Made by a program: the position numbers and the translations under genes | Notes under the pieces: model-generated | What the model was told of the DNA's origin: nothing | Database searches by the model: none | The model's input: only the letters and a program-made list of their open reading frames with translations | Shown: positions 2,973-6,161 of the stretch, in pieces | How the letters are laid out: each line of letters starts with the position of its first letter | Numbering within the stretch: position 1 is the first letter of the stretch | NCBI RefSeq assembly: GCF_006738645.1 | Contig: NZ_AP019700.1 | Coordinates: 4,012,001 to 4,076,000, forward strand | DNA length: 64,000 nucleotides | Reading direction: 5' to 3' | Source: Stella humosa | Lineage (GTDB): Bacteria > Pseudomonadota > Alphaproteobacteria > ATCC43930 > Allostellaceae

Positions 2973-2996
2973 AGGCCGCGGATCGCTCCGCGGCCT
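2973..2996 (-). terminator. Rho-independent terminator of the nonapeptide-repeat gene
   Basis: The stem AGGCCGCGG / CCGCGGCCT (9 bp, 6-base loop) lies 28 bases after the stop of the leftward repeat-protein gene. On that strand it is followed by TTCGCCGTTTTAG, giving a short T-run. The position between two leftward genes means it would separate the repeat protein from the serine hydrolase. Confidence 0.6.
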
Positions 2997-3024: not shown

Positions 3025-3315
3025 CTAGCGGCCGAGCTTCTGGTCGGCTTCGACCGACTGGCCGAACTTGCCGTCGTCGAGATTGCGACCGTACTTGCCC
3101 TCGTCCATGTTGCGGCCGTACTTGCCTTCGTCGGCATTCGCACCGAACTTGCCCTCGTCGGCGTTGGCGCCGAACTTGCCCTCGTCGAGCAACTGGCCGT
3201 ACTTGCCGTCATCCTGGTTCATGCCGAACTTGCCGGCATCGAGCGACAGGGGGGAAGCGACGGCACCGAAGGCGATCAGCGAAGCGATGGCAGCGGCGGA
3301 AATGAGCTTGGTCAT
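3025..3315 (-). CDS. Small secreted protein of seven tandem nonapeptide repeats
   Basis: This 96-residue protein has an N-terminal signal peptide (MTKLIS, a hydrophobic Ala/Ile/Leu core, cleavage predicted near A-V-A-S at 18-21). Residues 26-88 then form seven contiguous 9-residue units of pattern D-[AED]-G-K-[FY]-G-x-x-x, and a short tail EADQKLGR ends the protein. The units are DAGKFGMNQ, DDGKYGQLL, DEGKFGANA (twice), DEGKYGRNM, DEGKYGRNL and DDGKFGQSV. The start is the ATG at 3315, preceded by AGGAGG at ideal spacing. A terminator follows at 2973-2996, so it looks like a single-gene transcript. Every unit carries acidic-Gly-Lys-aromatic-Gly, suggesting a regular solenoid, a ligand-binding repeat or an exported structural peptide. 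I do not recognise the family and propose no function. Confidence 0.8.
   Translation of the reverse strand: MTKLISAAAIASLIAFGAVASPLSLDAGKFGMNQDDGKYGQLLDEGKFGANADEGKFGANADEGKYGRNMDEGKYGRNLDDGKFGQSVEADQKLGR
3052..3240 (-). repeat. Seven 27-bp in-frame tandem repeats encoding D-x-G-K-[FY]-G-x3
   Basis: There are seven 27-bp units without indels. All keep the GGCAAGT(T/A)CGG core (complement as written on the + strand: CCG[TA]ACTTGCC). The third and fourth units encode identical peptides but are not fully identical across flanks, so the array is old enough to have diverged at variable positions while the D-x-G-K-[FY]-G core is held. Confidence 0.85.
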
Positions 3316-3669
3316 GGGAACCTCCTGGTCAGTCTGGCTGGGCGACCCGGTCCATCCCCGCGCCGTCCTCATGACCAGAAGGTAGTCCCGCGGCCGACCG
3401 ACGGCGAATCACGCTGGGTCACTCCGCAGTGAGCGATGGATGACCGTTTCGTGATCGTCGCCGGCCCTCCACGAAACCGTAACGGCGGCGTGGCAGGGTC
3501 GCCCCATGCTGATGCACGACCTCGTCGACTCCCTGGCCCGCGGCCTCGCGGTCACCGGCCTCGCCATCGCCGTCCTGGCCCTGGCCGGCATGCTGCACTG
3601 ACCGCCGCCGCGACGGCCGGGCCAGCTAGGGGCTGGCCGGCGGCCGCATATCGCGCTATCGGAAGAGGC
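3316..3669. other. Longest gene-poor stretch (354 bp) between two divergent genes
   Basis: This stretch separates the leftward repeat protein from the rightward lipoprotein. It contains the strong ribosome-binding site of the repeat gene (around 3320), a small inverted repeat TCACT-CCGC-AGTGA (3419-3432) and one possible 31-codon membrane-peptide ORF (3506-3601). Apart from these I see no conserved coding signal. Promoters for both flanking genes must lie here, but no convincing -35/-10 pair stands out. Confidence 0.5.
3506..3601 (+). CDS. Possible 31-residue single-pass membrane peptide
   Basis: The ATG at 3506 is preceded by CAGGG at a 7-base spacing. It opens a 31-codon ORF: a short amphipathic start (MLMHDLVDSLARG), then a hydrophobic helix rich in Ala/Leu/Val/Ile ending GMLH-stop. 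Length and composition match the many single-TM small proteins of bacteria. It lies 68 bases upstream of the lipoprotein gene on the same strand, so co-transcription is possible. Nothing beyond ORF structure supports it, and GC-rich DNA makes such ORFs by chance. Confidence 0.3.
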   Translation: MLMHDLVDSLARGLAVTGLAIAVLALAGMLH

Positions 3670-5095: not shown

Positions 5096-6034
5096 CTAAA
5101 GCCGCGACGTCGGCAAGTTCGCGGCCTGGTGGCGGTGGGTCCATTCCTGGACGAGGCGCTGGGCCACGGCCATCTGCTCTTCCGTCAGGCGGGCGGCGAC
5201 GCGGTCGCGGTTGCCGGCACCCTGGCGGCGGCATTCGGGGTCGCTGGAGTTGATGGCGGCGGCCGCGAACCACTGGTAGGCGCGGGCGTGGTCCTGCGCC
5301 ACCCCGCGCCCTTCGTCATAGAGGGCGCCGAGATTGACCTGGGCGCAGGCGTTGCCGGCGTCGGCCGCGCGCGCGTACCAGGCAGCCGCCCGCGCCGGAT
5401 CGACCGGCGCGCCCTGCCCGTACTCATGCATGAGGCCGATGTTGAACTGCGCGGAGGCGTCGCCACGCTCGGCCGCCTGGCCGAACCAGTGCAGGGCCGA
5501 GGCATAGTCCTGCGCCACGCCCAGGCCGTGATAATGCAGGTTGGCCAGATTGAACTGGGCATCGACATTGCCGCGCTCGGCGCCGCCGCGATACCAGCGC
5601 GCCGCCTCGGCATGGTCCTGGGCCACGCCCTGGCCCTTGTCGTAGCGCAGGCCCACCTTGAACGACGCCGACGGATCGCCGCGCTCGGCCGCCAAGCGGA
5701 ACAGGCGGAACGCCTCCGCCGGGTCGCGGGCCACGCCGTTGCCGGCCTCGTACATCATGCCCAGCAGATACTGCGCGCTGGGCCGGCCGCGGTCGGCGGC
5801 CTGGCGGTAGAGGCGCACCGCCTCGGCATGGTCGCGCGGCACGGTCAGGCCCAGTTGGTGAAGGATGCCGCGGCTTTCCAGCGCTTCCGCATCCTCTTCC
5901 TCGGCCGGAGCGGCCGGCGGCTGCATCCAGGCGTCCATGCCGCGCCCCTCGACCCCGGGCGACCGCAACGATGCCTGGGCCCCCGAAATCGAGATGGCCA
6001 GCCCCATCCCGGCGATGATCGCGATGCGCAGCAC
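5096..6034 (-). CDS. Secreted Sel1-like repeat (SLR) protein
   Basis: This protein of about 312 residues has a signal peptide (LRIAIIAGMGLAISISGAQA) followed by about six Sel1-like repeats, 36-residue alpha/alpha units recognisable by A-x-x-x-L-G-x-x-Y/H-x-x-G-x-G-V-x-x-D-x-A-x-A-x-x-W/L-[YF]-x-x-A-A. Sel1 proteins are TPR relatives that scaffold protein-protein contacts, often in envelope signalling. The start is taken as GTG at 6034, which has GGAGGGG 6 bases upstream. An ATG at 6094 would put 20 charged residues before the signal peptide. The gene is convergent with dppD, with a 12-bp gap. The C-terminal ~50 residues are helical and not repeat-like. No partner can be named. Confidence 0.85.
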   Translation of the reverse strand: MLRIAIIAGMGLAISISGAQASLRSPGVEGRGMDAWMQPPAAPAEEEDAEALESRGILHQLGLTVPRDHAEAVRLYRQAADRGRPSAQYLLGMMYEAGNGVARDPAEAFRLFRLAAERGDPSASFKVGLRYDKGQGVAQDHAEAARWYRGGAERGNVDAQFNLANLHYHGLGVAQDYASALHWFGQAAERGDASAQFNIGLMHEYGQGAPVDPARAAAWYARAADAGNACAQVNLGALYDEGRGVAQDHARAYQWFAAAAINSSDPECRRQGAGNRDRVAARLTEEQMAVAQRLVQEWTHRHQAANLPTSRL

Positions 6035-6161
6035 GTGAACCCCCTCCGATCGAGATGGCCGACCAATTGCCCTGGCCTTGCCCAAATTCAGCAATCAGCA
6101 TGCCTCAATCGGGGTGGCGGATGGGGATGGGACAAACCGTCGCGGGGATCTTGCCCTTTCG

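Follow-up and report, generated by a model that had tools for sequence, protein, structure and literature searches.

The window analysed here is a 64,000-nucleotide stretch of the chromosome of Stella humosa ATCC 43930, whose genome sequence is AP019700 (PMC6687932). On its minus strand, positions 3025–3315 encode a nonapeptide-repeat protein of 96 residues (translation: MTKLISAAAIASLIAFGAVASPLSLDAGKFGMNQDDGKYGQLLDEGKFGANADEGKFGANADEGKYGRNMDEGKYGRNLDDGKFGQSVEADQKLGR), which has seven relatives elsewhere on the same chromosome and belongs to class A of its family. The first 20 residues (MTKLISAAAIASLIAFGAVA; 3256–3315, minus strand) read by eye as a Sec-type signal peptide, with a lysine near the N-terminus, a hydrophobic core and the junction AVA/SP. 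A signal-like N-terminus is kept in all full-length family copies, and the predicted A-x-A cleavage between AVA and SP would leave a mature protein of about 76 residues, near but not equal to the 75 originally proposed. Residues 26–88 (3052–3240, minus strand) consist of seven tandem units of the form D-x-G-K-[FY]-G-x-x-x, which start at residues 26, 35, 44, 53, 62, 71 and 80. Every spacing is exactly nine residues, which bears out the original observation of seven perfect-length nonapeptides, and Tandem Repeats Finder independently recovered a 27-bp period in the DNA, the strongest array in the window. The short tail described earlier is indeed present (EADQKLGR; 3028–3051, minus strand), but it is a worn, degenerate eighth unit: the same place is intact and in register (DDGKLGR) in the copies of S. 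vacuolata.

The gene has a ribosome-binding site and a terminator of its own, as had been claimed. AGGAGG lies five bases before the ATG (3321–3326, minus strand), and AGGAG is conserved across all class-A copies. Downstream, GGCCGCGGAGCGATCCGCGGCC (2974–2995, minus strand) forms a strong terminator-like hairpin (−35.4 kcal/mol, z = −4.1), though its U-tract (UUCGCCGUUUU) is weak, which is why a consensus terminator scan missed it. The hairpin is retained in the S. vacuolata copies, where the stem sequence differs yet is still complementary. Upstream of the gene lie a core promoter-like 15-mer, TACCTTCTGGTCATG (3370–3384, minus strand), which is common to class A and most of class B, and a 54-bp class-A operator (3403–3456, minus strand) with five TCA/TGA half-sites, whose outer end coincides with the boundary of the homogenised cassette described below. 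Elsewhere in the window, an ordinary-looking gene for a Sel1/TPR-like repeat protein occupies 5096–6094 of the minus strand.

A repeat family in the genus Stella

We examined four genomes of the genus, which is now also called Allostella (PMC12488387): S. humosa ATCC 43930 (AP019700), S. vacuolata ATCC 43931 (G003), Stella sp. ATCC 35155 (G001) and a fragmented genome, G002. The first three carry eight, eight and six copies, respectively; G002 has several, broken at contig ends, as is usual for near-identical repeats in short-read assemblies. The copies fall into three sequence classes: class A, which begins SPLSLD and includes the window gene, class B, which begins AAGLDEGKFG, and class C, with one member per genome. 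Two S. humosa copies stand somewhat apart. L035 (5194681–5194968), a class-A gene at a locus that is empty in both relatives, has one decayed unit (DAAKFAANT) and is 90–93% identical to its paralogues, and L040 (5469470–5469664), of class B, is shortened to four units and has a new C-terminus, AVAFQGR; the copies syntenic with it contain six and seven units. The S. humosa copies also lie nearer the dnaA end than expected, at a mean of 0.26 of the half-chromosome (p = 0.007, in a comparison that was not pre-specified). Codon adaptation of the family genes (CAI 0.69–0.77 against a window median of 0.70) is not unusually high-expression-like, and it is uninformative as an expression proxy here, as ribosomal genes hardly stand out from average ones.

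The repeat is not a product of chance. Among 148 units from 22 full-length homologues the spacing is nine without exception, with four to eight units per protein. All full-length copies from the four genomes preserve the repeat frame; its loss, which would have spoken against the original observation, was not found. Lys4 is present in all 148 units, and Gly3 and Gly6 in 147 each. The Gly-Lys-aromatic-Gly core that had been called invariant holds for its lysine and all but holds for its glycines; position 5 is not strictly aromatic, being Tyr in 64 units and Phe in 62 (126/148 together), Leu in 17 and Lys in three. Position 8 is Asn in 111 of the 148 units, and positions 7 and 9 are variable. 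The mature parts contain 18–25% glycine, have GRAVY values of −1.06 to −1.74 and pI values of 4.4–5.1, and no cysteine occurs in any of the 22 proteins. Two roles suggested earlier lose ground on these properties: polyanion binding is less likely for an acidic mature protein (net charge −1 to −6), and there is no Cys or His ligand set to back metal binding. A structure prediction had also been called for. AlphaFold2, run on a 23-sequence alignment, gave a mean pLDDT of 51 and a pTM of 0.13, and no fold for the mature protein; the model has no secondary structure except the signal helix. This low confidence fits a disordered mature protein, although for an orphan repeat family it is weak evidence.

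Within the databases searched, the family was found only in the genus Stella. Profile searches of the class (385 genomes), the order (43) and the phylum (399) recovered it in the genus alone: all four Stella genomes have it, and all 39 genomes from the neighbouring family of the order lack it. When the single protein was run against 84,980 species genomes, by a pattern-based scan that detects close relatives only, S. vacuolata alone was returned, and phages, plasmids and IMG/VR viral contigs held no true relative. The only two outside matches were rejected: one, in G053, aligned in a wrong reading frame with the repetitive tail of a gene that resembles PhaR, and the other, to a phage protein, was collagen-like. 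In line with the original remark, which did not recognise the repeat, it belongs to no known family: Pfam, NCBIfam and PDB gave only sub-threshold collagen-like or low-complexity matches. The collagen-like hit (PF01391) reached 18.5 bits against a gathering score of 27.2, and the glycines, at positions 3 and 6, form no G-x-y triplets; the likeness to bacterial collagen-like repeats (SclA/SclB) is thus weakly compositional and below cut-off, with no triple-helix pattern in the Stella protein. RTX nonapeptide repeats (GGxGxDxUx) share with the Stella units a nine-residue period, richness in glycine and an extracytoplasmic location. That identity was also rejected: the second glycine is replaced by lysine (148/148), there is no large hydrophobic residue at the U position, no beta-roll is predicted, and in Pfam the window protein has no match to the haemolysin-type calcium-binding repeat.

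Concerted evolution of the copies

In both relatives, the flanking genes are the same as in S. humosa at six of its eight loci (three of class A, two of class B and one of class C), and these six places must therefore have been occupied in the common ancestor. Within a genome, however, class-A paralogues are 90–99% identical in DNA, whereas same-place orthologues from different species are 76–82% identical. The tree groups class-A copies by species and not by locus (support 92/87, 100/99 and 97/95). In a sliding-identity analysis, the near-identity of paralogues was confined to the stretch between about −150 and the stop codon, beyond which they are unrelated. Orthologues, by contrast, are homologous along the whole locus, with similarity inside the cassette no higher than outside. 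That the six identical places were filled by independent insertion in each of three species is far less likely than gene conversion. Taken together, the identities, the tree and the sliding comparison demonstrated that the copies are kept alike by gene conversion, that is, by concerted evolution of a promoter-plus-gene cassette. Judging from the limits of paralogue identity, the homogenised unit is the stretch from the 54-bp upstream element through promoter, leader and coding sequence to the stop codon.

The two other S. humosa loci, L035 and L038, are empty in both relatives, so that gain or loss of copies also happens; inspection of these two empty sites by eye showed neither a target duplication nor terminal inverted repeats. 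For nearly all between-species pairs dN/dS was below 1, mostly 0.3–0.6. To our knowledge, bacterial protein genes kept identical by conversion in many copies at scattered loci are uncommon outside rRNA, tuf and antigen genes. The Stella family is a clean natural case for measuring bacterial gene conversion, one in which an entire promoter-to-stop cassette for an exported protein of no known relatives is the unit homogenised.

Class-specific operators

All class-A copies, the two in G002 included, carry the 54-bp element GATCACGgAnCGGTCATcnnncgnTCACcgnggAGTGAnCngGCGTGATTCGCC, in which TCA half-sites begin at 0, 11 and 22 and TGA half-sites at 33 and 43 (spacings of 11, 11, 11 and 10 bp). When the four genomes were searched with up to three mismatches, it matched only before class-A genes. 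Below this operator lies TACCTTCTGGTCAT[CG], common to classes A and B; with at most one mismatch, 14 of the 17 matches of the core promoter 15-mer in the four genomes were at family genes, and a reversed-pattern control gave none. The half-site layout is reminiscent of OmpR-family or PhoB sites. The half-sites resemble G-TCA-[CT] with an 11-bp period, which raised the idea of a Pho box; on a comparison by eye with a single pstS upstream region we make no claim of one.

Class-B genes have a different operator, GANNNAATNNGT-N13-GATTATC, which in many cases follows ATTGTTTC so that an inverted repeat ATTGTTTC...GAAACAAT results. This pattern had 11 matches in the four genomes and none with the reversed control, and all 11 lie at class-B genes, at a divergent LysR/extradiol dioxygenase promoter (L038/L131, L127, L128 and L137) or at a DoxX gene (L135, L136 and L134). 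The protein families beside the operator are HTH_1/LysR_substrate, LigB and DoxX. In S. humosa, copy L038 sits between the class-B operator and the dioxygenase gene, and in S. vacuolata, copy L046 likewise separates the operator from the DoxX gene; in the other species the same LysR/dioxygenase and DoxX promoters are present without a repeat gene. We infer from position and pattern a small regulon that joins the LysR gene, a LigB-type extradiol dioxygenase, DoxX and the class-B repeat genes under putative LysR control.

In Bacillus and Staphylococcus, quinone-detoxification regulons include ring-cleavage dioxygenases (PMC6798810), which makes an aromatic or quinone signal the leading guess for class B. 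The gene content itself, with a dioxygenase and DoxX, points to a signal that is probably aromatic or redox in nature, of the catechol or quinone type. In the YodB/MhqR/QsrR regulons of those genera, as putatively in Stella, a regulator controls a ring-cleavage dioxygenase; there the regulators are MarR-family repressors, whereas the Stella regulator would be LysR-type. The YodB/MhqR/QsrR regulons also include DoxX-type proteins, and we know of no secreted repeat protein in them. The window gene, being of class A, lacks the LysR-linked operator and shares only the 15-bp core promoter with class B, so that any aromatic link of this gene would be by family only.

Possible functions of the repeat protein

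That these genes form a genus-specific, gene-converted family of exported repeat proteins is, in our judgement, highly probable. The best explanation of the whole adds a function to this anatomy, and we hold it tentatively, at somewhat less than an even chance: a disordered polymer that coats or protects the envelope, with class B taking part in an aromatic/redox response. Six to eight scattered cassettes per chromosome, each with operator, promoter, leader and coding sequence and kept uniform by gene conversion, would supply a high dose of flexible polymer outside the cytoplasmic membrane. The protein would be an abundant polymer of the sticker-and-spacer type, residing in the periplasm, on the envelope or in the matrix around the cell. 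Within this polymer, the Phe, Tyr or Leu of each unit may act as a weak sticker, glycine and acidic residues as spacer, and the invariant lysine as an ionic or nucleophilic group. Such abundance is suggested by copy number and by the weak origin-proximal bias noted above (p = 0.007, not pre-specified). Class A would be expressed through a putative activator that reads the five half-sites, and class B would be made together with the LysR-controlled extradiol dioxygenase and DoxX. Since classes A and B have separate operators and one is tied to aromatic/redox genes, function is directly testable by induction and deletion.

An alternative that we consider unlikely, though worth weighing, is a secreted hydrophilin or LEA-like protectant that shields envelope proteins when soil dries or under osmotic stress. 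Hydrophilins and LEA-like proteins (yeast Hsp12, bacterial GsiB/YciG-type) resemble the Stella protein in being small, glycine-rich, hydrophilic, repetitive and without a predicted fold. The mature parts, to which we applied the physico-chemical definition in place of the uncleaved precursor, have glycine far above 6% and hydrophilicity above 1; AlphaFold2 gives no fold, and Stella species were isolated from soil, manure and water (PMC6687932), habitats in keeping with such a role. Against this, class B is tied to a LysR–dioxygenase–DoxX set associated with aromatic/redox functions and not to any set recognisable as one for desiccation or general stress, and the strict G-K-[FY]-G register with its invariant lysine goes beyond the demands on a compositional protectant. 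Most known hydrophilins are cytoplasmic, unlike the exported Stella protein, with which they share neither the strict nine-residue unit nor any sequence relation.

A more specific form of the coating function takes up the invariant lysine. Because the amines of lysine react with quinones, a coat that is sacrificial or tannable would be an attractive reading: lysine-studded disordered polymers would react with, or be cross-linked by, quinones and humic aromatics, one branch would be induced by a LysR aromatic sensor, and conversion would keep dosage and sequence uniform. We think this quite unlikely as it stands. Phe and Leu freely take the place of Tyr, so that tyrosine oxidation cannot be the essential chemistry. 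By analogy, quinone-tanned or DOPA proteins such as mussel foot protein and trematode eggshell proteins are likewise exported and built of short Lys/Tyr/Gly repeats; unlike them, the Stella protein is bacterial, its Tyr is replaceable by Phe or Leu and no oxidase gene is tied to it. If true, this reading would provide a bacterial counterpart of the quinone-tanned animal proteins.

Stella are bacteria known for the star shape of their cells. A structural component of this peculiar cell, in its arms, coat or matrix, would explain the restriction to a star-shaped genus, and an exported, multi-copy, repeat-built protein present in four of four genus genomes and in none of 39 of the neighbouring family would suit it. 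We nevertheless regard this role as improbable: many genes are genus-specific, so that co-occurrence with star shape is a single phylogenetic event and no test, the regulation of class B points to stress and not to constitutive structure, and the protein is very small, without a predicted assembly domain.

Very unlikely, in our view, is a precursor cut into bioactive nonapeptides (signals, antimicrobials or RiPP-like core peptides), which had also been raised originally. The perfect nine-residue period, the signal peptide and the multi-copy family would all fit, but the centre of the unit is invariant while positions 7–9 vary freely, and no protease, modifying enzyme or exporter accompanies the copies, whose flanks are mutually unrelated. 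Bufferins (DUF2282 RiPPs with an MNIO enzyme and the DoxX-like BufD) offer a comparison of this kind, the Stella protein being likewise a small exported peptide that can adjoin a DoxX gene (S. vacuolata, L134). This identity was rejected on sequence, as none of the 22 copies analysed contains cysteine. Among the immediate neighbours of the class-B loci inspected, no MNIO/DUF692 gene was seen. Finally, a selfish dispersed element whose coding sequence is incidental is barely credible: the dispersed cassettes of 0.35–0.6 kb and the two loci empty in both relatives would fit a small mobile cassette, but six loci hold a copy in each of the three species, dN/dS is mostly 0.3–0.6, operators, ribosome-binding site and reading frame are conserved, and the empty sites lack, by eye, the marks of transposition noted above.

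We also observed that all class-A and class-B proteins end in Arg, as LGR, DGR, DPR or QGR, with the other last residues differing; the class-C proteins do not end in Arg.
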